Assembly (NCBI RefSeq): GCF_039649665.1 | Contig: NZ_JBDJAW010000040.1 | Location: forward strand, 1-64,000 | Origin: Microbispora sp. ZYX-F-249 | GTDB lineage: Bacteria; Actinomycetota; Actinomycetes; Streptosporangiales; Streptosporangiaceae | Reading direction: 5' to 3' | DNA: 64,000 nucleotides | Shown here: positions 22,176 to 63,317 of the stretch, one piece after another | Position numbering within the stretch: the stretch's first letter is position 1 | How the letters are laid out: every line of letters starts with the position of its first letter | Translations under genes and position numbers: made by a program | Notes under the pieces: model-generated | The model's database searches: none | What the model was told of the DNA's origin: nothing | The model's input: only the letters and a program-made list of their open reading frames with translations

Positions 22176-22501
22176 CCGTCCCTCCTCGTCACGGACCCCG
22201 GACGTGACGGCCGGAACCGCCGGTGGCGGGGCCGCCCCCGGTTTCCGGCACCTGGCTCGTATCCGCGGACCGCACATACCGGTGCAAACCCAGTGAAGCC
22301 ACCGATAGAGGGACCCGTCAACGCGGGCCGGAAGGTCCAGCAATCTGCGAGAACACACCCCGGCCGCCTATTCGGGATGGCAGGAAGGTGACGGCCGCGG
22401 GCATCTTGCTGCCGCCGATTCTCCTGGTCGCCGGGGCCGGCGCGGAGCACCGTGAATGGTGCAGGACAAACGACGCCGGTTCGAGGAAAGGTGTGCTGGA
22501 A
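22176..22501. promoter_or_regulatory. Divergent promoter region with motif A and B copies
   Basis: This 326-bp gap separates the YcaO-like gene from the ligase gene. It holds a weak motif-A copy GCAATCTGCGAGAACA (22340-22355, plus strand), and motif-B-like elements TGGCAGGAAGGTGAC (22378-22392) and the reverse of GGCAGCAAGATGCC (22403-22416). No coding sequence is seen here. Confidence 0.45.
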
Positions 22502-24112
22502 ATGACGGTCCTGGACAACCCGCCCCTCGCGTCAATTATCGGAGAAGGATCCTTCCCCGCCGAATTCAATATCTCCGCGCATTTCCTGGACCGCAATGAT
22601 CCGACGCGTACGGCGTTGGTCACCGCGGCAGGCCCGGTCACCTACGACCGGCTGCGGACCCTGGCGTGCCAGGTGGGCAACGCGCTGCGGAGCCTCGGCG
22701 TGCGGCGGGGCGACCGGGTGCTCCTGGCGCTGGGCGACGGAATGGAGTTCGTGGCGGCGTGGTACGGAGCGCAGCGCATCGGCGCGATCACCGCGGAGGT
22801 CTACACCTACCTCCAGCCGAAGGACTACCGGTACTACGCGGAGTACGCCGAGCCGGCGGTGGTGATCGCCGACGGGCAGACGCTGGAGCGGCTGCGGGCG
22901 GCGGGAGTGCGCGGCCTGCTGGTGACCGGGGTGCGCCCGGAGGAACTGCGGGAGGGCGAGCACCACTTCGAGACGCTCGTGGCGGCCCAGCCCGGCGAAC
23001 TCGACCCCGTCCCGGTCGCCCCCGACGACGTCGCGATCTGGAAGTTCACCACCGGCAGCACGGGTGCGCCCAAGGCGTGCCTGCTCCCGGCGCGCGCTCC
23101 GCTGCTGAGTTACGAGTGGTACGCGCGAGACGTGCTGGGCCTGGGCCCTGACGACCTCGTGCTGCCGGTGCCCAAGCTCTTCTTCGGCTACGCCAGGGAC
23201 CTCGCCGCGCTGTTCCCCTTCGGCGCGGGCGCGGCCGGAATAGCCTTCCCCGAGCGCAGCACACCCGAGCTGATCTTCGAGCTGATCGCGAAGTATCGTC
23301 CCACGATCCTGGTCAACGTCCCGACGATGATGGCGGCCATGGTCGCCCATCCCGCGGCCGCCGAGCAGGACCTCAGCTGCCTGCGGCTGTGCACGTCCGC
23401 CGGCGAGGAACTGCCCGCCGACCTGCACCGCAGGTGGCTGGACACGTTCGGCGTGGAGGTCGTCGACGGCATCGGCTCCTCCGAGGCGTACCACATCTTC
23501 CTGTCGAACCGCCCGGGCCGTTCGCGGCCCGGCAGTCTGGGGCAGGTCGTCCCCGGGTACAGCGCGCGTGTGGTGGACGGTGACGGCAGGGAGGTCCCCG
23601 ACGGCGAGGTCGGCCGGCTGGAGATCACCGGCGCGCCGGTGGCGCTCGGCTACTGGCGTGAGCCGGGCAAGACCGCCGCCACGTTCGTCGGCGAGCGCAC
23701 CGTCCGGTCCAGCGACCTGGTCGTCCGGAACGCCGACGGCACCTTCGAATACCGTGGGCGGATCGACGACCTGCTGAAGGTCGGCGGTGTCTACGTGGCG
23801 CCCGCCGAGATCGAAGGCTGCCTGCGCACCCACCCCGCGGTGCGGGAGTGCGCGGTGGTGGGCTACCGGGAGGGCGGCCTGACCCGGCCGAGGGCGTACG
23901 TGGTCCGCCGCGGCCCGGTCACGGCGACGGAGCTCCAGGACTTCGTCCGCGCCCGGCTCGCACCGCGCAAGTACCCCCGCGACGTCCGCTTCGTCGACGC
24001 GCTGCCCCACACCGCCTCGGGCAAGGTGGACCGCCGTGCCCTGCGGGACCTCGGCGAGATCGACCCGGCCTCGCCGGAATCGACCCCGGCCGCCGTCGCG
24101 CGGCCCCGGTGA
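22502..24112 (+). CDS. Benzoate/anthranilate-type acyl-CoA (or acyl-AMP) ligase
   Basis: A 536-residue adenylate-forming enzyme of the benzoate-CoA ligase group. FTTGSTGAPKACLLP is the P-loop A3 motif, GIGSSEAYHIFLSNRPGRSRPGSLG is A5 with the benzoate-ligase-like SNRPG, YRGRIDDLLKVGGVYVAP is A8 and TASGKVDRR supplies the catalytic Lys near the end. It activates an aryl carboxylate as AMP ester and passes it to CoA or a carrier. Next to kynureninase (13 bp downstream) the likely substrate is anthranilate or a hydroxylated anthranilate; benzoate or salicylate types cannot be excluded. The ATG at 22502 follows GAGGAAAGG; an upstream in-frame GTG is too close to that site. Confidence 0.82.
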   Translation: MTVLDNPPLASIIGEGSFPAEFNISAHFLDRNDPTRTALVTAAGPVTYDRLRTLACQVGNALRSLGVRRGDRVLLALGDGMEFVAAWYGAQRIGAITAEVYTYLQPKDYRYYAEYAEPAVVIADGQTLERLRAAGVRGLLVTGVRPEELREGEHHFETLVAAQPGELDPVPVAPDDVAIWKFTTGSTGAPKACLLPARAPLLSYEWYARDVLGLGPDDLVLPVPKLFFGYARDLAALFPFGAGAAGIAFPERSTPELIFELIAKYRPTILVNVPTMMAAMVAHPAAAEQDLSCLRLCTSAGEELPADLHRRWLDTFGVEVVDGIGSSEAYHIFLSNRPGRSRPGSLGQVVPGYSARVVDGDGREVPDGEVGRLEITGAPVALGYWREPGKTAATFVGERTVRSSDLVVRNADGTFEYRGRIDDLLKVGGVYVAPAEIEGCLRTHPAVRECAVVGYREGGLTRPRAYVVRRGPVTATELQDFVRARLAPRKYPRDVRFVDALPHTASGKVDRRALRDLGEIDPASPESTPAAVARPR

Positions 24113-24125
24113 AAGGAGACGCCGG

Positions 24126-25346
24126 ATGAACCGCACGGCGAACGACGACCAGTCCGCACGGCTCGCCCCCCACTACTCGATGTTCGGGGTCGAGCGGCGC
24201 CTCCTGCTGACCGGCCACTCGCATCAGGCGTGGCCCGACGTGGCGCTGGAAGGCCAGATAGAGGCCTTCCACGACGCCGCCGGGGACGCGGACGCCAAGT
24301 GGGGCCGCGCCATGGAGAAGGCGGAGCAGGTGAGGCGGGGCTTGCGGGGGTTCCTGCACGATTCGTCGGCCGAGCTCGCCCTCGGCGGCTCCACGCACGA
24401 GCTCCTGCTGCGCTTCCTGTCCGCGCTGGACCTGTGCGGCCGCCCGCGGCTGGTGACCAGCGACGGGGAGTTCCACACGATGCGCCGGCAGCTCGGCCGG
24501 CTGGCGGAGGAGGGCGTCGAGGTCGTCCGGGTCCCGGCCGAGCCCGTGGACGCCCTCGCCGAGCGGATGGCCGACGCCGTGGACGACCGGACCGCCGCCG
24601 TCCTGGTGTCGGCGGTCCTCTTCGAGACCGCGCGCGTCGTGCCCGGGCTCGCCCGGCTCGCCGCGGAGTGCCGCCGGCGGGGGGTTGAGCTGCTCGTCGA
24701 CGCCTACCACGCCCTCGGCGCCGTGCCGTTCTCCTCGGCCGAGCTCGAGTCCGCCTGGGTGGTCGGCGGCGGGTACAAGTATCTCCAGCTCGGCGAGGGC
24801 AACTGCTTCCTGCGGATCCCCCCGCACGCCGCCACGCTGCGGCCCGTGATCACCGGCTGGTTCGCCGAGTTCGCCGAGCTGGACGCCGCGCCACGCGGCG
24901 GCGAGGTGGGCTATCCGGCCGGCGCGGCCCGCTTCGCGGGCTCGACGTACGACCCGGTGAGCCACTACCGCGCGGCCCGGGTGTTCCGGTTCTTCGCCGA
25001 GCAGGGGCTCACCCCGCGGTTCCTCCGGGAGGTCTCGCTGCGTCAGGTCGGGCTGCTGGCCGAGCGTTTCGACGCGCTCGACGCCCCGGAGGACCTGATC
25101 AGCCGCGACCGCCGCGGCGCCCCGGAGGACTTCGGGGGCTTCCTCGCGCTCCGCTCGCCGTACGCCGCCCGGCTGCGCGAGGGCCTGGCGGCCCGGGGCG
25201 TGCTGACCGACAGCCGCGGCGAGTACCTGCGGCTCGGCCCCGCGCCGTACCTGTCGGACGCGCAGTTGACCGCCGCCGTCGACGCGCTCGGCGCCGAGCT
25301 CCGTACCCTCCGGGCGGCGGAAAAGACCGTGGTCCCGTCGCGGTAG
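24126..25346 (+). CDS. Kynureninase-like PLP enzyme
   Basis: A 406-residue fold-type I PLP enzyme of the kynureninase branch of class V aminotransferases. ELALGGSTHELLLRFLSAL forms the phosphate-binding part, LLVDAYHALGAVPF has the Asp-x-x-His pair that holds the pyridine ring, and VVGGGYKYLQLGEGNCF carries the Schiff-base Lys. Kynureninase cleaves kynurenine to anthranilate and alanine. The HSHQAW opening and the moderate similarity suggest a divergent member, possibly for a substituted kynurenine. It follows the ligase by 13 bp and ends in a strong bidirectional terminator. Confidence 0.82.
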   Translation: MNRTANDDQSARLAPHYSMFGVERRLLLTGHSHQAWPDVALEGQIEAFHDAAGDADAKWGRAMEKAEQVRRGLRGFLHDSSAELALGGSTHELLLRFLSALDLCGRPRLVTSDGEFHTMRRQLGRLAEEGVEVVRVPAEPVDALAERMADAVDDRTAAVLVSAVLFETARVVPGLARLAAECRRRGVELLVDAYHALGAVPFSSAELESAWVVGGGYKYLQLGEGNCFLRIPPHAATLRPVITGWFAEFAELDAAPRGGEVGYPAGAARFAGSTYDPVSHYRAARVFRFFAEQGLTPRFLREVSLRQVGLLAERFDALDAPEDLISRDRRGAPEDFGGFLALRSPYAARLREGLAARGVLTDSRGEYLRLGPAPYLSDAQLTAAVDALGAELRTLRAAEKTVVPSR

Positions 25347-25360
25347 CGGCGGGACCACGG
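25327..25360. terminator. Bidirectional terminator
   Basis: CCGTGGTCCCG (25327-25337) pairs perfectly with CGGGACCACGG (25350-25360), an 11-bp stem overlapping the kynureninase stop and ending 12 bp before the convergent tyrA stop. Confidence 0.75.
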
Positions 25361-25371
25361 AATCGGAACCG

Positions 25372-26250
25372 TCATGCGGCGAGCCGCCGCGGCGCGGACA
25401 GGTCGCCGCCGGCGATGAGGTCACGACCGCGGTTGCCCCTGACGAGCAGATCCGCGAGCGGGCCGTCCACGTGGCCGCCCTGACTGCGCAGCGCGGCCGC
25501 GGCCTTCGCGAGGTCCTCCACGACCGCCTCCAGGACGGTCGCGACGGCCTCCGCGTTCTGGCCGAGGATGTCGCACCACAGCCCGGGCGCGCCGGCCGCG
25601 ATCCTGGTCACGTCGCGCAGGCCCTGGCCTACCAGGGAAAGCGTGGTTCCGTCGGCGTCCGCGAGCCTGGCCGCGATCGCGGCGGACACCAGATGAGGCG
25701 CGTGCGAGACCACGGCGGCGATCCGGTCGTGCCTGCCCGCGGTCAGCACGACGCGCTCCGCCCCGCACAGCCGCACCAGTTCGCCGACCGCGGCCAGCGC
25801 CTTCGGCGCCGTGGCCGGATGCGGGCACAGGGCCCAGCTCCGCCCGGCGAACAGATTCGCCCGGGCCGCACCGGGGCCGGAGGACTCGCCGCCGGCCATC
25901 GGATGGCCGGGGACGTACGTCGCGAGGTCGCACCCGGCCGCCTCCACCTCGGCGAGGACCCGCCCCTTGGTGCTGGCCACATCGGTGTACACGGCGCCGA
26001 GCCCGCGGTCCTGGGCCTCGCGCAGCACGGCGGGCACCGCGGACGGCGGGGTGGCGACGACCACGACGTCGGCGGCGGGGTCGCCGGGGCGGTACGGCAG
26101 TCCCGCGCCCATACGCTCGGCGAGACGCAGGGCGCGGGCGTCCCGGTCGGCCAGACGGACGCGGACTCCGGCGTCGCGCAGCGCGAGCGCGACGGAGGTG
26201 CCGATCAGGCCGCAGCCGAGCACGAGAACGCGGCGAAGTGAAGCAGACAT
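25372..26250 (-). CDS. Prephenate dehydrogenase
   Basis: A 292-residue NAD-dependent enzyme converting prephenate to 4-hydroxyphenylpyruvate. VLVLGCGLIGTSVALALRDAG is the dinucleotide motif; TDVASTKG, PGHPMAGGESSG and HDRIAAVVSHAPHLVSAAIA are TyrA signatures, the last two containing the substrate-binding His residues. In glycopeptide and related clusters such a dedicated copy feeds hydroxymandelate synthase, which is present at 39.5 kb. No regulatory ACT domain is appended, so it may escape tyrosine feedback. The ATG at 26250 follows AAGGGA. A motif-B half-palindrome lies 150 bp upstream. Confidence 0.9.
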   Translation of the reverse strand: MSASLRRVLVLGCGLIGTSVALALRDAGVRVRLADRDARALRLAERMGAGLPYRPGDPAADVVVVATPPSAVPAVLREAQDRGLGAVYTDVASTKGRVLAEVEAAGCDLATYVPGHPMAGGESSGPGAARANLFAGRSWALCPHPATAPKALAAVGELVRLCGAERVVLTAGRHDRIAAVVSHAPHLVSAAIAARLADADGTTLSLVGQGLRDVTRIAAGAPGLWCDILGQNAEAVATVLEAVVEDLAKAAAALRSQGGHVDGPLADLLVRGNRGRDLIAGGDLSAPRRLAA

Positions 26251-26441: not shown

Positions 26442-26804
26442 TCAGAGTCCGGCGGGCACCGCCCGCGCGCCTCCGGTCAGGACGTGGCGCACGAACGACC
26501 GCAGGTCCTGGTGCTCGGCGACGGCGCCGGGCTCGACCCGGAGGCCGAGCTCGCGCCGGACACGCCCGGCGATCCGGAGCGCGGCCATGGCGTCGCCGCC
26601 CAGGTCGGCGAAGGTCGCGTCCTCCTCGCCCTCGCCGACGCGCAGGACGCTCCTCCATATCTCCGCGACGCGGCTCTCCACCGCGAACACGGCGGCCGCC
26701 CGGAAGGGATCGGCCAGGGGGAGTTCGTCCGCGAACGCGGGCGACGGCGGCGGGGCGGGCACGACGTCGAGACCCGACGCGCAGGCGAGCGAGGGCAGGC
26801 ACAT
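26442..26804 (-). CDS. Carrier-protein-like gene lacking the phosphopantetheine serine
   Basis: A 120-residue protein whose C-terminal ~75 residues look like a peptidyl/acyl carrier domain: VAEIWRSVLRVGEGEEDATFADLGGDAMAALRIAGRVRRELGLRV, then LRSFVRHVL. The attachment motif that should read LGGDS is LGGDA; I read the codon as GCC (Ala), so the domain cannot be phosphopantetheinylated by the normal route. The first ~40 residues are a Pro-rich leader. The ATG at 26804 is fixed by AGGAGG seven bases upstream. It lies upstream of prephenate dehydrogenase on the same strand, with a motif-A box 66 bp before the start. It may be a structural or docking partner, or decayed. Confidence 0.7.
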   Translation of the reverse strand: MCLPSLACASGLDVVPAPPPSPAFADELPLADPFRAAAVFAVESRVAEIWRSVLRVGEGEEDATFADLGGDAMAALRIAGRVRRELGLRVEPGAVAEHQDLRSFVRHVLTGGARAVPAGL

Positions 26805-27184
26805 CAGCGACCTCCTGCGGAAAAACAGGCGCACCGGTCCGGCAACCGTACGCCGGAAGACGGCGCCGGCCATCTTCCATCGTGCTTTTCTCGTGCTTCC
26901 GCCGTTGGCGGCGAGGACTGCGTAAAAAGCGGAACCGCATTTCCCCGGCTGACAGGAAGCTGTCATTTCCCGCCAGCTTGATGTCTTTGTCCGGCCTGTT
27001 CGCGGAGGCGGGCGCGGCGCACCCTGGAGAGTGCGAGAACAAATCGCGGTCCGGTGCGGAAGCACCGAAAAATGCGACTCGAATTCGCGCCGCCGGCCGT
27101 TTCCCGGATTCGGCCGCGCTCCGCCGCCCGCGGTTCACGGCGCGCGGATCGCGGCCCGTCAACCACTCCCGGAGGTCGTTCACC
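26805..27184. promoter_or_regulatory. Divergent control region with motif A (two) and motif B
   Basis: This 380-bp gap separates the carrier-like gene from the dioxygenase. It holds motif A on the minus strand (GCACGATGGAAGATGG, 26870-26885), the perfect motif-B palindrome TGACAG-GAAG-CTGTCA (26950-26965), and motif A on the plus strand (GCACCCTGGAGAGTGC, 27019-27034). No gene is seen in it. Confidence 0.55.
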
Positions 27185-27979
27185 ATGATCCTCGACCACA
27201 CAACCGTGCTGACCTACTCCTCGTACCTCGCGCTGGACGAGGTCCTGACGGCGCAGCGCCCCCGCACGCGCGAGCACGACGAGGTGCTGTTCATCGTGAT
27301 CCACCAGGTGCACGAGCTGTGGTTCAAGCAGCTCCTGCACGAGTTCGCCGAGCTGCAGCAGCGGCTCGCCCTCGGCGACAGCGGACGCGTGCTCCACACC
27401 CTGCGCCGGTCGCTGGGGATACTCAAGCTGGTGGTCGCGCAGGTCGACGTGCTCGAGACCATGACACCTCCCCAGTTCACCGCCTTCAGGGACGCCCTCG
27501 GCAGCGCCAGCGGCTTCCAGTCGGCGCAGTTCCGGGAGGTCGAGGCCGTCCTGGGCCGGCGTGACCGGCAGGTGCTCGGCCGCTACGACGAAGGCAGCGC
27601 GGAGCGGTACCGCATCGAGGCCGCCATGAACCGGCCGTCCCTGTTCGACTCCCTGCTCGGCTACCTGGCGATCCACGGCTACCCGATCCCGGGCGAGCTG
27701 CTGCGCCGGGACGTGTCGCTGCCGATCGAGCAGTCGGAGGCGGTGCGGGAGGCCCTGCGGGCGGTCTACACGGACGACGGCCTGCCCGCACAGGTCTGCG
27801 AGGGCCTGATCGAGCTCGACGAGCGCCTGCAGGAGTGGCGGTACCGGCACGTGAAGATGGTCGAGCGGATCATCGGGTTCAAGACGGGCACCGGTGGCTC
27901 CTCCGGCGCCCCCCACCTCCGCGCCGGCGTGTTCACGCCGATGTTCCCCGACCTGTGGGCCGTGCGATGTGACTTGTGA
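27185..27979 (+). CDS. Tryptophan 2,3-dioxygenase
   Basis: A 264-residue heme enzyme that opens the indole ring of L-tryptophan to N-formylkynurenine, the first step of the kynurenine route. Signature segments are IHQVHELWFKQLLHE near residue 37 (substrate-contact His), FRDALGSASGFQSAQFREVEA (substrate Arg region), and WRYRHVKMVERIIGFKTGTGGSS, in which the His is the proximal heme ligand. Length is normal for bacterial TDO. The ATG at 27185 follows GGAGGTCG. With the formamidase-like gene and kynureninase nearby it supplies anthranilate to the cluster, and it is separated from them by the minus-strand tyrA/carrier pair. Confidence 0.92.
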   Translation: MILDHTTVLTYSSYLALDEVLTAQRPRTREHDEVLFIVIHQVHELWFKQLLHEFAELQQRLALGDSGRVLHTLRRSLGILKLVVAQVDVLETMTPPQFTAFRDALGSASGFQSAQFREVEAVLGRRDRQVLGRYDEGSAERYRIEAAMNRPSLFDSLLGYLAIHGYPIPGELLRRDVSLPIEQSEAVREALRAVYTDDGLPAQVCEGLIELDERLQEWRYRHVKMVERIIGFKTGTGGSSGAPHLRAGVFTPMFPDLWAVRCDL

Positions 27980-28009
27980 TGACGGGCAGTCCCGGCAAGC
28001 CAGGAGTAA

Positions 28010-28025
28010 GCAATCTAAAGGATGC
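28010..28025 (+). promoter_or_regulatory. Motif A upstream of the acyltransferase
   Basis: GCAATCTAAAGGATGC, 59 bp before the acyltransferase start, in the 105-bp gap after the dioxygenase. Confidence 0.5.
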
Positions 28026-28084
28026 CCAGTCGTATCTGTCGGGACAAAGTGGGCCTCATCCGTTACTAAAGAAGGGATGGCGCT

Positions 28085-29395
28085 ATGGTGGCACCTCCAA
28101 CCGCCGGCGTAGCGGCCCGCGACAAGACACGCGTCCGCACACTGGACGGGATACGCGGAATCTGCGCGATGGCGGTCGTCTTCACGCACGTCGCGTTCGC
28201 AACGTTCGTGCTCAGCTCCGCGGCCGGACCGCCACGCGAGGGCATCTGGTCGATCCTGGCGGCCGGTCAGCTGTCCATCGGACCGTTCTTCATCATGTCG
28301 GGCCTGTTCCTCTACAAGCCCTTCGTCCGCCGGGCCTTCCTCGGCACGGCCAAGCCCGACCTCGGCCGGTTCTTCGTCCGGCGGGGCGCGCGACTGCTGC
28401 CCGCCTTCTGGCTGATGACCGCGTTCTGCCTGCTGGTCCTGAACCTCGACGCGCTGCAGGGCGTCTGGGACGTGCTGCGCCCGTTCCTGCTCCTGCACAT
28501 CTACGACTTCCACTACTACGCCGGGCTCGACGTGGCGTGGACCGTTCCGGCCGAGACGCAGTTCTACCTGGCCCTGCCGGTGCTCGCGTGGTTCATCCAC
28601 CGGCTCGGGCGCGGCGTCGACGACCCGGCGCGCAAGGCCCGGCGGATGCTGGTCCCGCTCGGCGTGCTCGTGGTGCTCCAGTTCGCCTGGACCGCCTACG
28701 TCCACTCGGCGTACGAGGCGTGGCCGCCGCAGTACTTCTGGCCGTTCGGCATCACCGGCCTGTTCGCGATCGGCATGGCCATGGCGATCTGGTCCGTCCT
28801 CGCCGAGGTCTCCCCCGGGTCGGAGCCGGCCTTCTGGCGGCTCGCGGTCCGCAGGCCGCACCTGTTCTGGCTCGGCGCGCTGGTCGCCTACGCCATCAAC
28901 TGCGCCCAGCCGTTCGGCGTCCCAGGCACGGCGGACTGGCAGACGACCCCCGCGGCGCTCGTGCGGGACGCGATGCTGCTGTCCTTCTCGTTCCTGCTCA
29001 TGGTCCCGCTGGTGGTGCCGGGCGCGGCCTCGCGGTTCATGGAGGTGACGCTCGGCAACGGCGTGATGCGTTACCTCGGGCGCATCTCGTACGGCATCTA
29101 CCTCTGGCACTTCCCGATGATGTACCTGCGGTTCGGCAGCGGGAGCATCTTCGGCGAGACCGTCCCCGTCCAGATGCTGCTGGGCAAGTTCGGCTTCTGG
29201 GCCCTGGTGATCCCCGTGGCGCTCTCGACGATCGCGGTCGCCTCGGTGAGCTACTGGGTCCTCGAACGTCCCGTCATCCGCCTCGCGGACCGGTGGGCCG
29301 CGGCGCGCAAGGCGAAGGAGGCGGCCGCCCGGCCGGTCGCGCCGGCCGCCGAGGAGCCCCTGCGCCAGGAGGAGAGGAGCCCCGCGGCGATCTGA
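28085..29395 (+). CDS. Acyltransferase family 3 (OafA/YrhL-like) membrane protein
   Basis: A 436-residue integral membrane O-acyltransferase with about ten hydrophobic segments. RTLDGIRGICAMAVVFTHVAF at the N-terminus carries the family Arg and catalytic-type His, and YLGRISYGIYLWHFPMMY and VLERPVI near the end complete the acyltransferase-3 pattern. Members acetylate or acylate sugars on surface polymers, macrolides or antibiotics (for example midecamycin 3-O-acyltransferase). Here a tailoring step on an exported product is likely. The C-terminal ~45 residues are Ala/Arg/Glu-rich. Ribosome site GAAGGGA before the ATG; own motif-A box upstream; ends at a hairpin terminator. Confidence 0.82.
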   Translation: MVAPPTAGVAARDKTRVRTLDGIRGICAMAVVFTHVAFATFVLSSAAGPPREGIWSILAAGQLSIGPFFIMSGLFLYKPFVRRAFLGTAKPDLGRFFVRRGARLLPAFWLMTAFCLLVLNLDALQGVWDVLRPFLLLHIYDFHYYAGLDVAWTVPAETQFYLALPVLAWFIHRLGRGVDDPARKARRMLVPLGVLVVLQFAWTAYVHSAYEAWPPQYFWPFGITGLFAIGMAMAIWSVLAEVSPGSEPAFWRLAVRRPHLFWLGALVAYAINCAQPFGVPGTADWQTTPAALVRDAMLLSFSFLLMVPLVVPGAASRFMEVTLGNGVMRYLGRISYGIYLWHFPMMYLRFGSGSIFGETVPVQMLLGKFGFWALVIPVALSTIAVASVSYWVLERPVIRLADRWAAARKAKEAAARPVAPAAEEPLRQEERSPAAI

Positions 29396-29412
29396 CGACC
29401 CGCCACACAGAG

Positions 29413-29443
29413 GCGCCGTACCGGCTCGGACCCGGTACGGCGC
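29413..29443. terminator. Hairpin between convergent genes
   Basis: GCGCCGTACCGG (29413-29424) and CCGGTACGGCGC (29432-29443) form a perfect 12-bp stem with a 7-nt loop, between the acyltransferase and the DUF1905 gene. Confidence 0.75.
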
Positions 29444-29468
29444 TTCGCTGTGCAGGTGACTTCGGATG

Positions 29469-29921
29469 TCAGGGGCGGTTGCGGCCCTCGCGCAACGCGG
29501 CGAGCGACTTGACCACGCGCTGCTCGCGCGTCTCGGCCTTCTTGGCCTGCTCGATCCAGGTCACGAAGCCCTTCTTCTGGCTGTGGGTCAGGCCCTCGAA
29601 GAACGTCTTGGCCGCGGGCTCGTCCGCCAGCGCCTTCGCCAGGTCCTCCGGCACGGTCACCACGCGGGGCTCGGTGTCGAGCTCGATGTCGACGTCGACC
29701 TCGTCGCCCGCGGCGACGCCGGCGCCCTTGCGGTTCTCCGCGCTGACCGGCACCAGGAATTCCGGCCCGTAAACGCCGATCGTGGTGCGATAGCTGTAAT
29801 CGCCGATCGTCACTTTGACCGGCGGGCGCTTACCGGAGCCGAGCGCCTCAATGACCTCCACCGGAACCCGGATGCCGGTGGCCGTCTTGCCGTCGAGCTG
29901 GATTTTGGCGCGAAATCTCAT
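29469..29921 (-). CDS. DUF1905/YdeI (OmpD-associated-like) domain protein
   Basis: A 150-residue protein. The N-terminal ~90 residues are a DUF1905 beta barrel (KIQLDGKTATGIRVPVEVIEAL, then KVTIGDYSYRTTIGVYGPEFLVPVSAENR), and the C-terminal helices (ALADEPAAKTFFEGLTHSQKKGFVTWIEQAKKAETREQRV) are the YdeI/OmpD-associated domain. The role of this family is poorly known; some members are linked to peptide resistance in enterobacteria. It has no motif-A box and its GC pattern is housekeeping-like, so it may be an unrelated chromosomal gene caught within the cluster. Confidence 0.75.
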   Translation of the reverse strand: MRFRAKIQLDGKTATGIRVPVEVIEALGSGKRPPVKVTIGDYSYRTTIGVYGPEFLVPVSAENRKGAGVAAGDEVDVDIELDTEPRVVTVPEDLAKALADEPAAKTFFEGLTHSQKKGFVTWIEQAKKAETREQRVVKSLAALREGRNRP

Positions 29922-30113
29922 GGCGCGATCTTACCTCTCTGATAGGGCCCGTGCTGGGCTTTTCCTTTGCCTGTCCGGCGCCTCCCGCGTCCGGCGGAAG
30001 GGCACGGAAGCGCGAATGCCGTCCCGGAATGAACTCATCCCGGGACGGAATGGCGCGGAAATGACCGCTGCGGCGGAATACGCCCGGCCGGCGCACGAAA
30101 TGGCGGCCACGGC

Positions 30114-33375: not shown

Positions 33376-33500
33376 GCTCATCTCCTCCTGACCGGGCCGC
33401 AGACACGGCCCGGAAGGCCCCGGGGTGCCCGCTGTGCCGTTCGGAACGGACATCGAATCGGAACGGTCATCGAAATCGTCGCCTCAGCCGCGCGGGCGGT

Positions 33501-33516
33501 GCATCTCCTCGATTGC
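33501..33516 (-). promoter_or_regulatory. Motif A upstream of the FkbM unit
   Basis: Minus-strand GCAATCGAGGAGATGC, identical over all 16 bases to the copy upstream of the halogenase at 45407-45422. Confidence 0.6.
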
Positions 33517-36757: not shown

Positions 36758-36842
36758 CACAGTCCTCCTTCTGCAGGGCACATGCGGCCGCCGCGCCGGC
36801 GGCGGATGTTTTCCCCATCGTCGGACCGCGCCGTTCCGTGGG

Positions 36843-48712: not shown

Positions 48713-48728
48713 GCTTCCTCTCGATTGC
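48713..48728 (-). promoter_or_regulatory. Motif A upstream of the binding protein-transporter unit
   Basis: Minus-strand GCAATCGAGAGGAAGC, 99 bp before the start and 13 bp past the epoxide hydrolase stop. Confidence 0.5.
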
Positions 48729-49896: not shown

Positions 49897-49994
49897 AGGT
49901 GCTCCGATCACTGCGGGCGGGTCGGAAGCGCACGCCGGAAAGGCGCCGTTTCGCGGAGATGCACTGGCATGGTGCGCCGGGCCCGACCCGCCGG

Positions 49995-50010
49995 GCATCT
50001 CCTGAATTGC
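49995..50010 (-). promoter_or_regulatory. Motif A, minus strand, for epoxide hydrolase
   Basis: GCAATTCAGGAGATGC, 99 bp before the epoxide hydrolase ATG; GCGCAC occupies the second-box register. Confidence 0.55.
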
Positions 50011-50022: not shown

Positions 50023-50038
50023 CGCAAAGGGGAAGATG
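50023..50038 (+). promoter_or_regulatory. Motif A, plus strand, for the methyltransferase unit
   Basis: GCAAAGGGGAAGATGC, 12 bp from its back-to-back partner on the other strand; GTGAC stands in the second-box register. The methyltransferase ATG is 64 bp away. Confidence 0.55.
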
Positions 50039-50101
50039 CCCGCCCGAGACCGCGACGGTGACGATGGCGTTCCGGCGCCTTTTCCCCGAAGGGACGCGCA
50101 C

Positions 50102-54654: not shown

Positions 54655-55030
54655 CGGGCTTCTCCCTCTTCTCGCAACTCGACTCCTGGGTGGGTCCTGC
54701 TTGAGGTGGCGGCGCCGCGTCGCGGGGACGCGGGGAAGGAGCCGGGAGCGCCCGCGCGTCAGCGGAACGGGAACCGGAAGCCGGAGCGCTCGGTGGACGG
54801 CGCCTCCCCCGGCCGGGGGCGGGCGTTGCGCATTCCGCTGTGCGACCGATGCTGTCACCGCCCGGCGCGCGGGGCTTCTTCCAGGCTGCGGTCCTGCCGC
54901 TCATCACCCCGCTGACGAGGCACGACGACGCCCGGTGGGCAATCGAGAAGGTGCACGACGCAACCGCGGGTGCGACCTTCGGGATGGGGTGGCACGGCAT
55001 GCGCCGCCCGAGATTCCACGGGAGGAAGAG
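54655..55030. promoter_or_regulatory. Divergent region with two motif-A boxes
   Basis: This 376-bp gap holds GCAGCCTGGAAGAAGC on the minus strand (54874-54889) for the HpaB-type gene and GCAATCGAGAAGGTGC on the plus strand (54939-54954) for the flavoenzyme at 55031. Apart from these I see no gene; short frames here lack ribosome sites. Confidence 0.55.
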
Positions 55031-56212
55031 TTGCTGACGACCGAGGTTCCGACGCGGGAACAGCTTGTTCGCCGCGCCAGCGACATCGCTCCGGTTCTGC
55101 GCGGCCACGCGGCCTGGGCGGAGGAGCACCGCCGCATCCACGACGAGTCGATCGAGGCGCTCGCCGACGCCGGCGTGTTCAAGCTGCGGGTGCCGGCCCG
55201 GTACGGCGGTTACGAGGCCGACACGCGCACCCTGGCCGACGTGGCCGCCGAGCTCGGCAGGGCCGACGGCTCGACGTCCTGGGTGGCCTCCGTCTACTGG
55301 ATCCCCACCTGGATGACCTGCCTGTTCCCCGACGAGGTGCAAGACGAGGTCTTCTCCACCCCCGACGTCCGGGTGTGCGGCACGCTGAGCCCGACGGGCA
55401 CGGCCGTCCCCACCGACGGCGGCGTCGTGCTCAACGGCAGGTGGGGGTTCATCAGCGGCGCCCTGCACAGCCACTGGCAGGAGATCGTCGCCATCCACAT
55501 CCCGCAGGACGGCGAGCCGTACCCGGTCATGACGCTGGTCCCGATGTCGGACCTGCAGGTGGTGGACGACTGGCACACCTCCGGGCTCCGGGGGACGGGC
55601 AGCGTCACCACGGTGGCCGAGAACGTGTTCGTCCCCTCGTCGCGGGTGCTGCCCCTGCCGGCGATCCTGGAGGGCCAGGGCGCCTCGGTGAGCAACGCCG
55701 GCAGGCCCGCCTACCGCGCGCCGCTGCTGCCGGTCGCCTCCGCGTCCTCGGTCGGCACGGTCCTCGGCCTGGCGAGGGCGGCGCAGGACGCGTTCTTCCA
55801 GCGGCTGCCGCAGCGGAAGATCACCTACACCGGGTACGCGAGCCAGGCCGAGGCGCCGCTGACCCACCTGCAGACGGCCGACGCGGCCATGAAGATCGAC
55901 GAGGCCTTCTTCCACGCCCACCGGCTGACCGGCCTGGTCGACGGCAAGGGCGCGGACGGGACGCCGTGGTCGCTGGAGGAGCGGGTCAGGGCCCGCGCCG
56001 ACATGGGCGCCGTGTGCCGGCTCGGCAAGGAGGCCGTCGACATCCTGGCCCTCGCCAGCGGCGGCTCGTCCGTCTACACCGACCAGCCGATCCAGCGGAT
56101 CGCCCGTGACGTCCAGGCGATCAACCTGCACGCCCTGATGCACCCCGACACCAACGCCGAGCTGTACGGGCGGATCCTGTGCGGCCTCGGGCCGGACACC
56201 CTCTACGTCTGA
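55031..56212 (+). CDS. Acyl-CoA dehydrogenase-fold flavin monooxygenase (first)
   Basis: A 393-residue group D flavoenzyme: acyl-CoA dehydrogenase fold used as a flavin monooxygenase. [50 protein letters not shown] is the standard N-terminal block, [22 protein letters not shown] the central one, and the C-terminal helices end [25 protein letters not shown]. It lacks a clear catalytic Glu base. Relatives hydroxylate phenols (HsaA, HpaC2-type) or N-oxidise amino sugars (KijD3). A TTG start at 55031 is fixed by GGAGG five bases upstream. First of three co-directed genes to 58091. Confidence 0.8.
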
Positions 56213-58236: not shown

Positions 58237-58238
58237 GA

Positions 58239-59474
58239 TCAGCCGACGCCGAACCTCGCGCGGGCGAGCTCGCGGTTGGCGAGACTCGACAGGAAGACGG
58301 CCAGGCCCGCGTGGCTGTGCAGCGTGGACATGTCGCGCCACACCCGCTCGATGCGCTCGCCCTGCCGCACGGAGCTCGATCCCGCCGTGGGGAACAGGTG
58401 GCCCTCCACGGCCCGCCAGCAGAGCCGGACGACCTCGCGGCTGATCGTCGCCAGCCGCAGCTCGCGTTCCCGGGTGAACGCGGAGGGCCCGCGCTCGCAG
58501 GTCTCCCGCCACTGGCGTACGGCGTCGGTCATGGCCGCCTCCGCCGTGGCGATCATCGCGCTGGCCTCGCCGTACCGGAACTGGTAGTCGGGGTCCTCGG
58601 TCCTGCTGACGATCGGGAAGAACGTCGTCGTCCTGCTCCGCATCAGGTCCTCGTACGCGTCGAGGGCGCCCTGGGCCATGCCGACGGCCAGCGCGCCCAG
58701 CTCGAGCAGCATGAAGCTGAGCGGGCCGCCGCCGTACTGCGGGTTGGCGTGCAGGGCGAGACCCGGCGTGCCGCCGGTGACCGTCACCTGGCTGAGATGG
58801 GCGCCGAGCGTGAGGTGGTCGGGGACGAAGGCGTTCTCGATGGAGATGCTGTGCGAGCCGCTCCCCCGCAGCCCGAGCTGCTGCCCCCAGTCGTCCAGGC
58901 GCCGCCACTGGTCGCGGGACACGACGAACAGCATGGGCGCCGGCGGCTCCCCCTCCCGGGCGGGGACGAGGGTGTGGCCGAGGAAGTGGGTGGCGTAGGG
59001 CGCTCCGGAGCAGTAGTTCCAGACGCCGTCGAGCACCCAGCCGCCCTCGGTGCGCTCGGCCTTGCCGGCGGGCGCGACCGTGGCGGGGCAGATGAAGTCG
59101 CCGCCGGCGAACAACTCGGCCTGGGCCGGCTCGGGGAACAGCGTGGCCACCGCGAGCGCGTGCGCGGCGCCGAACAGGTACATCCAGCCGGTCGAGGGGC
59201 AGCCGCGGGCCAGCGCGGTCGAGACCCGCATGAAGGTGTCGACCCCGAACTCGTAACCGCCGTACCGCCGGGGAACCAGCAGCCGGTAGAAGCCGGCCTC
59301 GGCGAACCGCCGGTGCGTGTCCTCCGCGTAGTAGGTGCGCTCCTCGGTCTCGGCCTGGCGCGCGACCAGGGCCGAGGCGATCGCCTCGGCCCTGGCTACG
59401 ACGTCCTCGGGCGTGAGACCGGGCTCGGGCGGGCTGGCCGGGGCCCGATCTGCGACACGAGTGACAACTGTCAT
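58239..59474 (-). CDS. Acyl-CoA dehydrogenase-fold flavin monooxygenase (second)
   Basis: A 411-residue relative of the enzyme at 55031, about equally long but clearly distinct in sequence. FAEAGFYRLLVPRRYGGYEFGVDTFMRVSTALARGCPSTGWMYLFGAAHA is the N-terminal block, LGLRGSGSHSISIENAFVPDHLTLGA the central one, and AVEGHLFPTAGSSSVRQGERIERVWRDMSTLHSHAG the C-terminal end with the His typical of phenol-hydroxylating group D enzymes (HsaA-like). It should use FADH2 or FMNH2 from a reductase. The ATG at 59474 follows GGAGGG. Motif A with the exact TGTGAC second box lies 72 bp upstream. Confidence 0.82.
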   Translation of the reverse strand: MTVVTRVADRAPASPPEPGLTPEDVVARAEAIASALVARQAETEERTYYAEDTHRRFAEAGFYRLLVPRRYGGYEFGVDTFMRVSTALARGCPSTGWMYLFGAAHALAVATLFPEPAQAELFAGGDFICPATVAPAGKAERTEGGWVLDGVWNYCSGAPYATHFLGHTLVPAREGEPPAPMLFVVSRDQWRRLDDWGQQLGLRGSGSHSISIENAFVPDHLTLGAHLSQVTVTGGTPGLALHANPQYGGGPLSFMLLELGALAVGMAQGALDAYEDLMRSRTTTFFPIVSRTEDPDYQFRYGEASAMIATAEAAMTDAVRQWRETCERGPSAFTRERELRLATISREVVRLCWRAVEGHLFPTAGSSSVRQGERIERVWRDMSTLHSHAGLAVFLSSLANRELARARFGVG

Positions 59475-59545
59475 TGGTTGCGGCCCTCCGTCTCGGATGA
59501 TGGGCTGGGGGACACCTCCAGCGTCACACCCGTCGTCGTGGCCGC

Positions 59546-59561
59546 GCATCTCTCCGATTGC
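59546..59561 (-). promoter_or_regulatory. Motif A upstream of the second flavin monooxygenase
   Basis: Minus-strand GCAATCGGAGAGATGC; TGTGAC begins exactly 17 nt after the box, as behind the halogenase copy. Confidence 0.65.
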
Positions 59562-59588: not shown

Positions 59589-61706
59589 TCAGGGGACCAG
59601 CGCGGGGGTCTCGCTCCTCTCCTCGGGTCCGGCGGCCGCCGCGCCGTCCTCGGCCGCGAGCCTGCTCGGCCACCAGATGCGCCGCCCGAAGTCCAGGTTG
59701 AGCGCGGTGACGAGCACCGAGCGCACGACGAGGGTGTCCAGCAGCACGCCCAGGGCCACCGCGAAGCCCAGCTCGACGAAGAACACCAGGGGCAGGCTCG
59801 CCAGCACCGCGAACGTGCCGGCGAGCACCACGCCCGCCGACGTGATGACGCCGCCGGTCGCCGCCAGCCCGGTGAGCGCCCCCTGGCGGGTCCCCCGCAG
59901 CCGGGCCTCCTCACGCACGCGGTGCATGAGGAAGATGTTGTAGTCGATGCCGAGCGCCACCAGGAAGACGAACACCAGCAGCGTGAACCCGCCGCCCTCG
60001 CCGTTGAAGCCCAGCAGGTGCTCGAACACCAGGACGCTGACCCCGAGCGCGGCCGAGAACGACAGGACGACGGTGGCCATGAGCAGGATCGGCGCCACGA
60101 CCGCCCGCAGCAGCAGGCCGAGGATCACCAGGACGACCAGCAGGACCAGCGGGATGACGAGCCTGTCGTCGTGGCTGTAGGCCTCGCTCATGTCCAGCGC
60201 GAGCGCCGTCTGGCCGCCGACCTTCGCCTCCGCGCCCGGAACCGCGCGCACCGCCTCCCGGACCCGCTCGACGGTCGCCTGGGCGGCGTCGCTGTCGGGC
60301 TGGTCCCTGAGAGTGCCCTCCAGGCGTACCAGTCCGTCCTTCACCACCGGCTCGCCGACCTCGGCGATGCCGTCCGCGCCGGCGACGGCCGTCCGCAGCG
60401 CGGAGGCGGCCTCGGCCTTCCCGATCACCACGACCGGCTGGCCCACGCCCGCCGTGTAGTGCCTCCCCAGCGCCTCCTGCCCGGCGACGGAGTCCGGCCG
60501 GTTGACGAACGAGTCCTCGGCCGACAGCCCGCCCGCGTCCAGCCAGGTGAGCCCGAGCGACATGGCGCCGAGGACGAGCACGGTCGCGATCCAGACGGGA
60601 CGGGGCCTGCGGCCGATGGCGCGGCCCAGGCGGGCCCAAAGTCCGGCGGCGGACGGCTCGGCCGAGCCGAGACGCGGCTTGACCGGCCAGAAGATCCAGC
60701 GCCCGAAGATCACGAGCAGGGCCGGCAGCAATGTGATCATCACGATCAGGGCGACGACGACGCCGATGGCGGTCACCGGGCCGAGCCCCGCCGTGGAGTT
60801 CATCTGCGCGAACAGCAGGCACAGCATGCCGATCGCCACGGTGGCCGCGCTCGCGACGATCGCCGGGACGGCCCTGCGCAGGGCGACGGCCATGGCCTGG
60901 TGCCGGTCGGCGTGCCGGCGCAGTTCCTCGCGGTAGCGGGCGACGAGCAGCAACGCGTAGTCGGTGCCCGCCCCGAACACCAGCACGGTCAGGATCCCGG
61001 CGCTCTGCCCGTTCACGGTGAGGCCGGTGTTCTCGGCGACGAGGTAGATCACGCCCTGGGCGGCCGTCAGCGCCAGGCCCGCGGCCATGACCGGCAGCAG
61101 CCACAGCACCGGGCTGCGGTAGGTGAACAGCAGGATCAGGATCACGACGACGATCGTCGCCATCAGCAGCCTGCCGTCGATGCTGGCGAACGCCGCGTTG
61201 TTGTCGGCCGTGACGCCCGCCGGGCCGGCGACGTGCACGCTGAGCCCGCCGCTCCCGCTCCCGACGACGTCGCGGATCGCGTCGACCCTGGTGCCGATCT
61301 TGTCCCAGCCGTCGCCGGCCATGTCCAGCGGGACGACCACCTGCAGCGCCTGGCCGTCGGCCGCGGGAATCGGGCCGGCCACCTGTCCGGTCACCCCGTC
61401 GACCCGGGACAGGCCGCCCAGGTCGGCGGCCGCCTTCGCCCGGTCGGCCTCGGTGATGCCCGACGTGCGTTCGTACACGACGACCGCGGGGCTGACCTCG
61501 GCCGTCTGGAATCTCCGCTGCAGTTCGATCACCTGCGTGGCCTCGGCGTCGCCGGGGAGCCACTGGGCCGCGTCGTTCTGCTGGATGCCGCTCAGTTTCC
61601 CGGCCAGCGGCCCGGCCGATGCGACGATCGCCAGCCATACGATGACGACCGCCCATTTCGTCCAGCGTCCGCATACCAGGCGTGCGGCGCCGCTCACCCC
61701 ACTCAT
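59589..61706 (-). CDS. MmpL/RND-family membrane transporter
   Basis: A 705-residue transporter with two repeats, each a transmembrane helix, a periplasmic domain of ~130-150 residues and five further helices. WTKWAVVIVWLAIVASAGPLAGKL is helix 1; VFGAGTDYALLLVARYREELRRH and VFLVALGIDYNIFLMHRVREEARLRG are the paired MmpL motifs with proton-relay Asp-Tyr residues. MmpL proteins export lipids and lipophilic antibiotics and occur in many actinomycete clusters as resistance pumps. Ribosome site GGGAGGA. A weak motif-A copy lies 73 bp upstream. Confidence 0.92.
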   Translation of the reverse strand: MSGVSGAARLVCGRWTKWAVVIVWLAIVASAGPLAGKLSGIQQNDAAQWLPGDAEATQVIELQRRFQTAEVSPAVVVYERTSGITEADRAKAAADLGGLSRVDGVTGQVAGPIPAADGQALQVVVPLDMAGDGWDKIGTRVDAIRDVVGSGSGGLSVHVAGPAGVTADNNAAFASIDGRLLMATIVVVILILLFTYRSPVLWLLPVMAAGLALTAAQGVIYLVAENTGLTVNGQSAGILTVLVFGAGTDYALLLVARYREELRRHADRHQAMAVALRRAVPAIVASAATVAIGMLCLLFAQMNSTAGLGPVTAIGVVVALIVMITLLPALLVIFGRWIFWPVKPRLGSAEPSAAGLWARLGRAIGRRPRPVWIATVLVLGAMSLGLTWLDAGGLSAEDSFVNRPDSVAGQEALGRHYTAGVGQPVVVIGKAEAASALRTAVAGADGIAEVGEPVVKDGLVRLEGTLRDQPDSDAAQATVERVREAVRAVPGAEAKVGGQTALALDMSEAYSHDDRLVIPLVLLVVLVILGLLLRAVVAPILLMATVVLSFSAALGVSVLVFEHLLGFNGEGGGFTLLVFVFLVALGIDYNIFLMHRVREEARLRGTRQGALTGLAATGGVITSAGVVLAGTFAVLASLPLVFFVELGFAVALGVLLDTLVVRSVLVTALNLDFGRRIWWPSRLAAEDGAAAAGPEERSETPALVP

Positions 61707-61778: not shown

Positions 61779-61794
61779 GGTTCTCGGAAATTGC
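61779..61794 (-). promoter_or_regulatory. Weak motif-A copy upstream of the MmpL gene
   Basis: Minus-strand GCAATTTCCGAGAACC; it deviates at the 3' end but resembles the ligase copy GCAATCTGCGAGAACA. Confidence 0.35.
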
Positions 61795-61878: not shown

Positions 61879-63126
61879 TCAGTGGGCGGCGCCCACCGCG
61901 ACGGCCGCGGTCAGCCGGACCGGAAGCGCGCGATGACCGTTCATGATGAAGGTCGGCAGCGGCTGGAGGTCCTCGGCGGCCACGGCGAGGCTCAGGTCGG
62001 GGAACCGCTCGAACAGGCTCGACAGGCCGATCTTCGCCACCAGCCGGGCCACGGACGCCCCCAGGCAGTAGTGCGGGCCGTAGCCGAAGGAGAGGTGCTC
62101 CTTGTCGGACCGCAGGACGTCGAAGCGGTCCGCGCCGGCCCCGTGCAGGGCCGGGTCCCGCCCCACGGCGCTGTAGTTGACCAGGATGGGGTCGCCCTTG
62201 GGGATGGTCACGTCGTCGAACTCGATGTCCTCGACCGCGTACCGCAGCGGCAGGTGCGCCAGCGGCGACTCCACGCGCAGGACCTCGTCGATGACGTCGT
62301 CCCAGGTGGCCGCGCCGGACCTGACGAGCTCGAGCTGCTCCGGGTGGCGGAGCAGCGCGGTGATTGCGTTGTCGAAGAAGTTGATCGTCGTCTCCGACCC
62401 CGCGCCGAGAATGGCGAAGATCGTGTCGGTCAGCTCCTGCTCGGACAGGCGCGAGCCGTCCTCGTCCCGGGCCGCGATCAGGTCGCTGGTGATGTCCTCC
62501 CCCGGCTCACGCCGCTTGGCGGCGATGAGCTCGGCCATCGCGCCACGCCATCCCTGCAGCACGGCCTGCGCCTGCTCCGGGGTGACGGTGGTGTCCACCA
62601 TCATGTCGATGACCTTCGCCGTCTTGGCCCGGGCGTCCTCGGACATGCCGATCAGGTCGGCCACCAGCCGGGCCGGCAGGGGGTAGGCGAACCGCTCGCG
62701 CAGGTCGACCACCTCGCCCGGCCCGGCGGCCGCCAGCCCGTCGAGCAGTTCCTCGGTCAGCTGCACGATGCGGGGCCGGATGGCCTCGGTGCGCCGCGGC
62801 GTGAACGCCTTGCCGACCAGCCTCCGCAGCCGGACGTGGTCCTTGCCGTACGCGGTGACCATGTTGTCCATGGCCACCCAGCTGATCATCTCCCAGTCCG
62901 GCGGGATCTCGCCGTTGATGAACGCCGGCCAGTGGTTGCGGGCGCTCTTGGTCACGTTGGGGTCGGTCAGCACCCTCCTGATCGCGGCGTGGCTGTTGAT
63001 CGACCACGCGACGATCCCGCCCGGCAGCTCGACCTGCACGGCCGAACCCTGCGCCCGCAGGACGTCGGCCTCGGCGTGGATGTCGCGTCCGGTGGTGTCG
63101 AGTGCGAAGGGGCAGCGTTTGTCCAT
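61879..63126 (-). CDS. Cytochrome P450 (second)
   Basis: A 415-residue P450. ILGAGSETTINFFDNAI is the I helix with the acid-Thr pair shifted to S-E-T-T, DEVLRVESPLAHLPLRYAVEDI contains the ExxR helix, and LSFGYGPHYCLGASVARLVAKI is the heme loop with its Cys. FGYGPHYCLGA is typical of actinomycete macrolide/aromatic hydroxylases such as the CYP105/107 groups. It would act as a late oxidation enzyme. The ATG at 63126 follows TGGAGA. A motif-A copy lies 176 bp upstream, past the stop of the next gene. Confidence 0.9.
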   Translation of the reverse strand: MDKRCPFALDTTGRDIHAEADVLRAQGSAVQVELPGGIVAWSINSHAAIRRVLTDPNVTKSARNHWPAFINGEIPPDWEMISWVAMDNMVTAYGKDHVRLRRLVGKAFTPRRTEAIRPRIVQLTEELLDGLAAAGPGEVVDLRERFAYPLPARLVADLIGMSEDARAKTAKVIDMMVDTTVTPEQAQAVLQGWRGAMAELIAAKRREPGEDITSDLIAARDEDGSRLSEQELTDTIFAILGAGSETTINFFDNAITALLRHPEQLELVRSGAATWDDVIDEVLRVESPLAHLPLRYAVEDIEFDDVTIPKGDPILVNYSAVGRDPALHGAGADRFDVLRSDKEHLSFGYGPHYCLGASVARLVAKIGLSSLFERFPDLSLAVAAEDLQPLPTFIMNGHRALPVRLTAAVAVGAAH

Positions 63127-63301
63127 TGATATCTCCAGGATCGCTTGACCTGCCGGGCATGCCGACGCCGGCGCGGGACTGACAGAAGGAAAACGGCGAG
63201 GTCGGGCATAAGACCGTGAGCCGCCGACCACCGGATGAGAAGGACGTTTTTTCGGCGACAACTCTTATGCGGTTAATAGTGCGTTTTATTTGTCAGATCG
63301 G

Positions 63302-63317
63302 GCATCTTCCCGCGTGC
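63302..63317 (-). promoter_or_regulatory. Motif A upstream of the second P450
   Basis: Minus-strand GCACGCGGGAAGATGC; ACGCAC is in the second-box register. This is the rightmost copy seen. Confidence 0.5.

Follow-up and report, generated by a model that had tools for sequence, protein, structure and literature searches.

What is the 16-bp box that recurs upstream of genes in the first 64,000 nt of contig NZ_JBDJAW010000040.1 (C40) of Microbispora sp. ZYX-F-249, and which protein reads it? This stretch (positions 1 to 64,000; hereafter, the window) comes from a genome of 8.775 Mb and, judged by its genes, is part of a Microbispora enediyne cluster. The box is probably one half, the operator, of a bipartite promoter, its predicted partner being an AraC/XylS activator of the SgcR2 type encoded in the enediyne cluster. 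Binding of the AraC-type protein to the box, activation, the transcription start, and the sigma factor used are what we infer from features that can be read directly in the sequences, namely, the motif, its restriction to this cluster within the genome, the fixed spacing of a downstream hexamer, the conservation of the box across enediyne clusters, and the co-occurrence of the box with the AraC-type gene.

The window contains eight exact copies of the box, GCAATNNRRRRGRTGC, where 20 order-3 Markov simulations average 0.00; allowing up to one mismatch raises the count to 12 (simulated mean, 0.05). Across the whole genome there are only these eight exact copies, all between 28010 and 59546, and the reversed-pattern control yields none. 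With at most one mismatch, the genome contains 33 sites, 13 on the window's contig and 20 elsewhere, compared with 18 genome-wide for the reversed control; the 20 sites off this contig are background level. One-mismatch sites on the contig include an extra copy past the window, at 67538, upstream of an operon with a GMC-oxidoreductase-like gene (a label that rests on likeness to the C-1027 annotation), and a site at 62970 that falls within a P450 gene.

The box also emerges when no motif is supplied. A de novo search allowing zero or one occurrence per sequence (ZOOPS) was run on upstream regions, with gene starts called by a simple purpose-written gene caller and with shuffled controls. On the 27 regions between 19.5 and 67.7 kb it returned gCaatcnngAaGATGc, with a log-likelihood ratio (LLR) of 101 against 45 to 50 in five shuffles, whereas the 14 regions of the window's left part gave an unrelated motif whose LLR of 57 is slightly over that of their shuffles (43 to 48). 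For scoring, we built a box matrix from 59 training sites of 11 other genomes (the window excluded), gathered by the pattern with at most one mismatch, and took 12 or more bits as a good site. Over 67.7 kb, 13 sites reach this threshold, against a mean of 0.72 and a maximum of 6 for 50 column-permuted matrices; they fall in 12 of the 27 upstream regions (13 if the site at 39439 is assigned to a distant gene) and in none of the 14 on the left.

The original prediction had listed 17 copies lying before almost every transcription unit, a claim that these counts reduce considerably. All 15 strings that it spelled out are present in the sequence (11 of them on the minus strand), and 14 are correctly placed, the copy given as 50023 in fact starting at 50024. 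Twelve of the 17 reach the threshold, and five score below 8 bits: 54874 (7.7), 26870 (4.6), 27019 (1.4), 22340 (6.1), and 61779 (6.5; minus strand). Three of these (26870, 54874, and 61779) keep a −10-like hexamer at the correct spacing; the copies at 27019 and 22340, with a low score and no −10, are taken as chance. The window has no Rfam match at gathering score and no tRNA. By these sequence counts, the box is a real promoter element common to about half of this cluster's units. The proposal of one cluster-wide regulon, with a second element at a fixed distance, is borne out by the confinement, the blind recovery, and the matrix.

The anatomy of the site was read from 231 unique sites that were selected on the box only, 123 from the 12 matrix-training clusters and 108 from elsewhere (near-duplicates were merged, which reduced one set from 71 to 70). 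Their consensus is GCAATNCRGRAGATGC, with conserved blocks at positions 1 to 5 and 10 to 16, one helical turn apart. The box had been described as a dyad of GCA and TGC; these ends are indeed conserved, but the interior is asymmetric, such that there is no true dyad. We rejected a symmetric arrangement: agreement is limited to the outer GCA/TGC, and in Micromonosporaceae the 3′ part has drifted.

Downstream of the box, 208 of the 231 sites have AnnnT at either of two neighboring spacings, compared with 0 to 18 sites for each of 13 control offset pairs; of the 108 sites from outside the training clusters, 100 have it. The hexamer starts 20 or 19 nt past the box and has the consensus GACSAT. A TGTSAC element starting exactly 17 nt after the box had been noticed in three copies, where we likewise find it; it is best read as a TG plus the first half of the −10-like hexamer, and the most suitable reading of the second element as a whole is a −10 hexamer plus a partial TG extension. 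Within the cluster's 27 regions, the hexamer accompanies all 12 with a good site and 3 of the remaining 15, compared with 1 of the 14 regions on the left; at the sequence level, box and hexamer thus agree independently across the cluster regions. Of 86 sites (at most one mismatch) in the 12 enediyne clusters, 71 lie between genes and have a called start no more than 250 bp away; the other 15 comprise eight that are intergenic but more than 250 bp from a start, six that fall in a called gene yet near a start, and one that is in a gene and far from any start.

This layout resembles a familiar one. Class II sites of AraC/XylS proteins are asymmetric, have two recognition blocks, overlap the −35 position, and stand at a fixed distance from the −10. 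The box is likewise an asymmetric site in the range of ~16 to 20 bp with two blocks one turn apart, and from its position it would lie over the −35 at a fixed distance from the −10: a transcription start ~7 nt past the hexamer would place it at about −48 to −33. The starts predicted in this way fall ~33 nt beyond the end of the box, for example at 45374, 42540, 59513, and 50072.

The box is not particular to this strain. Among 341 genomes of the family, 126 contain the exact box, many with 3 to 10 copies among the matches listed. (A variant, GCAATCTGAGAGGTGC, is present as a single copy in each of at least 12 genomes belonging to one genus, which inflates single-hit counts; it is probably a conserved unrelated site.) On the plasmid of Streptomyces globisporus that encodes C-1027 (NZ_CP013739.1), the ZOOPS search on 37 upstream regions returned GCActnnnGgAGATGc (LLR of 118, versus 47 to 53 in five shuffles). 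With the matrix, which was trained on another family, 14 of these regions have a site of at least 12 bits, and 12 of the 14 also have the hexamer; the sites precede the halogenase, sgcJ, AMP-binding, E-operon DUF1702, MFS transporter, and sugar nucleotidyltransferase genes, among others. Over 130 kb of the plasmid, 16 sites reach 12 bits (permuted mean, 1.2; maximum, 5; 50 permutations). At 9 bits or more the margin is poor, with 22 sites against a permuted mean of 6.6 and one of 30 permuted matrices reaching 26. Micromonosporaceae loci with the AraC-type gene (141 regions, orthologous regions partly removed) gave a drifted form, nGCAcnncngAAGAag, with an LLR of 199 against 50 to 60 in three shuffles, and two Lentzea loci also carry the box. 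Over 80 loci with the cluster's polyketide synthase (PKS; see below), 137 sites reach 13 bits, against 4 to 54 for eight column-permuted matrices. On this sequence comparison, the box recurs in enediyne clusters family-wide and, more or less drifted, in those of other actinobacterial families.

The Streptomyces enediyne loci gave a different result in the de novo search, in which the box was sought as the top motif only: the top motif there is another 16-bp element, a palindrome like AGTTGCTTCACGCAAC. A pattern derived from those hits is present in 16 of 18 Streptomyces loci (L123, L126, L129, L130, L132, L137, L140, L145, L162, L163, L165, L167, L170, L172, L173, and L177), in 0 of 62 other loci, and not in the window; on NZ_CP013739.1 it lies at 72348 and 90388. 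In 7 of the 18 loci, a copy stands exactly 23 bp before a gene for a protein of ~147 amino acids; the gene at the corresponding place in C-1027 is annotated as helix-turn-helix, and the palindrome may be the operator of that regulator.

The enediyne assignment and the candidate activator both come from comparing clusters. Eleven relatives' clusters, picked by the box alone, have many gene families in common with the window. Six of the 11 encode one family of PKS (~1,930 residues), and seven contain the GMC gene. On Streptomyces plasmids, the C-1027 plasmid included, close relatives of that PKS adjoin genes with an enediyne biosynthesis annotation, and we therefore take it to be the enediyne PKS. 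In this genome, the enediyne PKS is encoded on a second contig, C17, at 4850–10648 (79% identical to a Planotetraspora PKS), beside an AraC-type gene at 1475–2251, at the start of that contig. In the M. corallina genome, the GMC operon (the one that ends C40 here) comes after the AraC gene; because the two adjoin in that genome, C17 and C40 are probably neighbors as well.

The AraC-type protein of C17 is 53% identical to SgcR2, and a profile search of this genome finds a single AraC match at an E value of up to 1e-40 (C17:1475–2224). Pfam HTH_AraC and HTH_18 match two of its orthologues, its solved-structure relatives in a profile search include RamA, Rob, SoxS, and MarA, and its recognition-helix residues are almost invariant. 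An AlphaFold model of the M. corallina orthologue (mean predicted local distance difference test score, 86.9) has seven N-terminal helices followed by a beta-rich domain; in the model, the helices would fit a double helix-turn-helix, as expected. A regulator with two AraC-type helix-turn-helix motifs, of the kind that uses class II sites, is thus encoded with the cluster, given the adjacency of C17 and C40 inferred above.

Genes of this kind co-occur with the box. Of the 341 family genomes, 123 have an AraC match, which we class as close at 300 or more bits (76 genomes) or weaker (47), leaving 218 without one. At least three exact boxes are found in 35 of the 76, in 2 of the 47, and in 0 of the 218; conversely, all 37 genomes with at least three boxes have an AraC relative, 35 of them at 300 or more bits. 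Of the 80 loci, 65 have an SgcR2-like gene no further than 10 kb from the PKS, 25 a StrR-like gene, and none an SgcR3-like or TrmB/LuxR gene. Among the 64 loci long enough to be tabulated (25 kb), 40 have both AraC and box, 15 have AraC without the box, 1 has the box without AraC, and 8 have neither. Of the four regulator types compared, AraC alone is found in every box cluster for which the PKS end is available (seven relatives, this genome, and C-1027).

An SgcR2-type AraC/XylS activator, encoded beside the enediyne PKS, would accordingly bind the asymmetric 16-bp site, its two helix-turn-helix motifs contacting GCAAT and, one turn on, RGATGC. Situated at about −48 to −33, the box would take up the position where a −35 is missing, which is the arrangement of a class II activator, and the bound protein would recruit RNA polymerase to the weak −10 (GACSAT), so that the dispersed operons of the cluster would be switched on together.

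Several observations weigh against this reading. The AraC gene travels with the cluster, and co-occurrence alone can therefore neither single out AraC nor prove binding; many of the box sites derive from related clusters and, as such, are not independent. When sites of at least 16 bits that precede a start no further than 10 kb from the PKS are counted, 15 of the 55 full-length loci with AraC have none, and one of the nine loci without AraC has one. Six of the 76 close-AraC genomes are without an exact box and 26 more have one, and several AraC loci of Streptomyces and Nonomuraea have no site of at least 13 bits near the PKS. In this genome, C40 and C17 are separate in the assembly, and the PKS operon has no box of at least 12 bits over positions 1–40000 of C17. 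The hexamer is unusual as well: T, the usual first base of a −10 (TAnnnT), occupies that position in 2% of the 231 sites against a background of ~14%. Its avoidance could mean either that the promoter is silent without the activator or that a different sigma factor is used.

Other readings of the box were weighed on the same data. It could be the operator of another regulator, whether the TrmB/LuxR protein encoded at 18261–19247, an StrR/TylR type as in C-1027, or a further one, which we consider unlikely. The TrmB/LuxR gene (minus strand; Pfam matches to DUF6879 and TrmB, with GerE just below the cutoff) lies inside or beside the cluster, was the reader suggested by the original prediction, and has a relative (E value up to 1e-20) in 34 of the 37 box-rich genomes. 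Its close orthologue (E value below 1e-90) is present in 24 and missing in 13, with two family genomes holding nine and seven exact boxes without it, and positions 5001–135000 of the C-1027 plasmid (130 kb) have no match at an E value of up to 1e-3. A LuxR/GerE-type (TrmB-LuxR) regulator is therefore not found wherever the box is, and by co-occurrence this protein is not the first choice. StrR-type genes, although present in 25 of the 80 PKS loci and in the stretches of two relatives (G026 and G065), were not found in the fetched stretches of five others (G058, G068, G142, G159, and G211) that hold both boxes and AraC, and SgcR3-like genes were found in none of 13 stretches and none of the 80 loci; both types were likewise set aside as first choice by co-occurrence. 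LuxR and StrR binding sites are, moreover, palindromic, and the box is asymmetric.

That the box and GACSAT form an alternative-sigma promoter without an activator, the box being an unusually long −35 element, seems to us very unlikely. The strict two-value spacing (208 of 231) and the nonstandard hexamer with T in 2% at its first position would suit such a promoter, but 16 conserved base pairs make a long upstream element for sigma region 4, and blocks 1 to 5 and 10 to 16 are one helical turn apart, like those contacted by AraC-type double helix-turn-helix proteins. The genome has 74 matches to sigma-70 region 2 (Sigma70_r2), none of them on C40 or in the first 67 kb of C17, and thus no sigma gene was found in the cluster as an extracytoplasmic function (ECF) or other alternative sigma factor would suggest; one encoded elsewhere in the genome could still serve. 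It is more improbable still that the same AraC-type protein binds the box as a repressor or that the box is an RNA element of the 5′ leader: operators overlapping a −35 can repress, but in 208 of 231 sites the hexamer is on the downstream side of the box, contrary to a leader element, and the parts of the published work considered here propose the AraC-type TnmR7 as a positive regulator of tiancimycin (PMC9464397) and report that sgcR1R2 supports C-1027 production, partly restoring it in an sgcR3 mutant (PMC2657911). That the copies are coincidental matches, selected by eye from GC-rich upstream sequence, is scarcely credible. Five of the 17 listed copies do score below 8 bits; for the main 12 copies, however, a chance origin is already refuted, all eight exact genome matches lying within the cluster and the box having been recovered de novo in two clusters independently.

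A broader and rather doubtful idea goes further: enediyne clusters of several families might share the SgcR2-type box and a T-avoiding GACSAT promoter class as an ancestral, leak-proof switch that was kept as the chemistry diversified, maybe read by a nonprimary sigma factor plus AraC.

Within the window, the box-bearing part of the enediyne cluster extends from 28010 to 64000 and runs on to 67737 on C40, the box at 67538 lying beyond the window. Three of its 12 good sites are on the plus strand. GCAATCTAAAGGATGC (28010–28025; 17.0 bits; −10 CAAAGT at 28045–28050) precedes an acyltransferase gene (start at 28085 or 28169, end at 29395), and GCAATCGAGAAGGTGC (54939–54954; 22.0 bits; −10 GACCTT at 54974–54979) precedes an acyl-CoA-dehydrogenase-type gene (55031–56212). 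The third, GCAAAGGGGAAGATGC (50024–50039; 14.9 bits; −10 GACGAT at 50060–50065), precedes a methyltransferase gene (50102–51649) and is divergent to the minus-strand unit of GCAATTCAGGAGATGC (49995–50010; 26.5 bits; −10 CACCAT at 49969–49974), whose gene encodes an epoxide hydrolase (48742–49896). The other minus-strand sites begin with GCAATCGAGGAGATGC, which occurs twice: at 33501–33516 (26.5 bits; −10 GACGAT at 33475–33480) before an FkbM-type methyltransferase gene (32548–33375 or –33453) and at 45407–45422 (28.6 bits; −10 GACCCT at 45381–45386) before the gene for a halogenase-type flavoprotein (43933–45324). An O-methyltransferase gene (35753–36760) is preceded by GCAATACGGAAGGTGC (36843–36858; 20.7 bits; −10 GACGAT at 36817–36822), a condensation-domain gene (37903–39117 or with a longer start) by GCAATGTGGAAGAAGC (39439–39454; 16.9 bits; −10 TAACGT at 39414–39419), and an adenylation-carrier gene (40755–42443 or –42518) by GCAATTCGGAAGATGC (42573–42588; 28.9 bits; −10 CACTCT at 42547–42552). 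Further along are GCAATCGAGAGGAAGC (48713–48728; 15.9 bits; −10 CATCGT at 48688–48693), before a solute-binding-protein gene (47196–48614); GCAATCGGAGAGATGC (59546–59561; 24.6 bits; −10 GACGCT at 59520–59525), before a second acyl-CoA-dehydrogenase-type gene (58239–59474); and GCACGCGGGAAGATGC (63302–63317; 12.9 bits; −10 CACTAT at 63276–63281), before the cytochrome P450 gene (61879–63126). The three weak candidates with a correctly spaced −10 are also on the minus strand: GCACGATGGAAGATGG (26870–26885; 4.6 bits; TACGGT) before 26442–26804, GCAGCCTGGAAGAAGC (54874–54889; 7.7 bits; CAGCAT) before an HpaB-type hydroxylase gene (53098–54654), and GCAATTTCCGAGAACC (61779–61794; 6.5 bits; TAGCGT) before an MMPL transporter gene (59589–61706).

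The genes of the window include those for an SgcJ-family protein, the HpaB-type hydroxylase, stand-alone adenylation-carrier and condensation proteins, and the halogenase-type flavoprotein, together with the epoxide hydrolase, the two acyl-CoA-dehydrogenase-type proteins, MMPL and MFS transporters, and the P450. On the question of a nine-membered core, the annotation of the C-1027 cluster names the same protein types as these accessory genes, a likeness by family names. Over 12 clusters, the flavin adenine dinucleotide oxidoreductase family (56718 in the window) occurs in all 12, the P450 and MFS families in 11, SgcJ-like proteins in 10, HpaB and both acyl-CoA dehydrogenases in nine, and the condensation and adenylation proteins in eight. 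The window's halogenase, antiporter, MMPL, and 4-hydroxyphenylpyruvate dioxygenase-like genes were found in none of the 11 relatives' fetched stretches; the last of these (39464–40513, minus strand) perhaps encodes a 4-hydroxymandelate synthase. On C17, the PKS operon (14893–15879 and upstream; L183) is without a box, and many relatives have one ~5 kb before the PKS. Next to this operon, large frames at C17:16382–19159, 22333–25383, and 27888–30599 (L183 and L184) resemble, by eye, ATP-binding LuxR-type regulators or Streptomyces antibiotic regulatory proteins. At the cluster edge in the window, an open frame at 17577–18092 (minus strand) contains three near-identical 29-residue tandem repeats (PFEVVGDGLGSGAEFEFVDP...) and may not be a gene.

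Few natural products are as potently cytotoxic as the enediynes, which are also a source of antibody-drug payloads. A single box would delimit the regulon in dozens of clusters and would show the operon membership of uncharacterized clusters despite broken contigs, and it would make the role of SgcR2 open to direct testing. Our literature search, which many enediyne papers lie outside and which would miss a sequence given only in a figure, recognized no published description of the box, and the searchable literature gives no binding site for an AraC-type regulator of enediyne clusters, C-1027 included. As far as that search reaches, the box is new as a described site, and its mechanistic kind is already known.

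Four known systems bear comparison. Promoters of cluster-situated ECF sigma factors, as in microbisporicin, also pair two elements a fixed distance apart upstream of a single biosynthetic cluster's operons; the present case differs in that no sigma-70 region-2 gene lies on C40 or C17:1–67 kb and in the length and sequence of the box. The C-1027 (lidamycin) cluster of S. globisporus shares several parts, with SgcR2 an AraC/XylS protein 53% identical to that of this genome, the same box obtained blind from its upstream regions, and a site of at least 12 bits in 14 of 37 of them. It differs in also having the StrR-type SgcR1 and the TylR-like SgcR3, of which SgcR3 binds the sgcR1R2 promoter alone among eight regions; the portion of that paper's text considered here gives no SgcR2 binding site (PMC2657911). 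In the tiancimycin system (TnmR7/TnmR1), a ten-membered enediyne, the AraC-type TnmR7 is likewise proposed, in the part of the study drawn on here, as a positive regulator of the cluster, and it was insoluble and thus went without a binding assay (PMC9464397). Class II activation by MarA, SoxS, Rob, and RamA, which are profile-search relatives of the AraC-type protein, shares with the predicted promoter an asymmetric two-block site, overlap with the −35, and a fixed distance to the −10, whereas the box differs from those sites in its sequence, in its regulon (a dedicated actinobacterial pathway), and in having GACSAT instead of TAnnnT.

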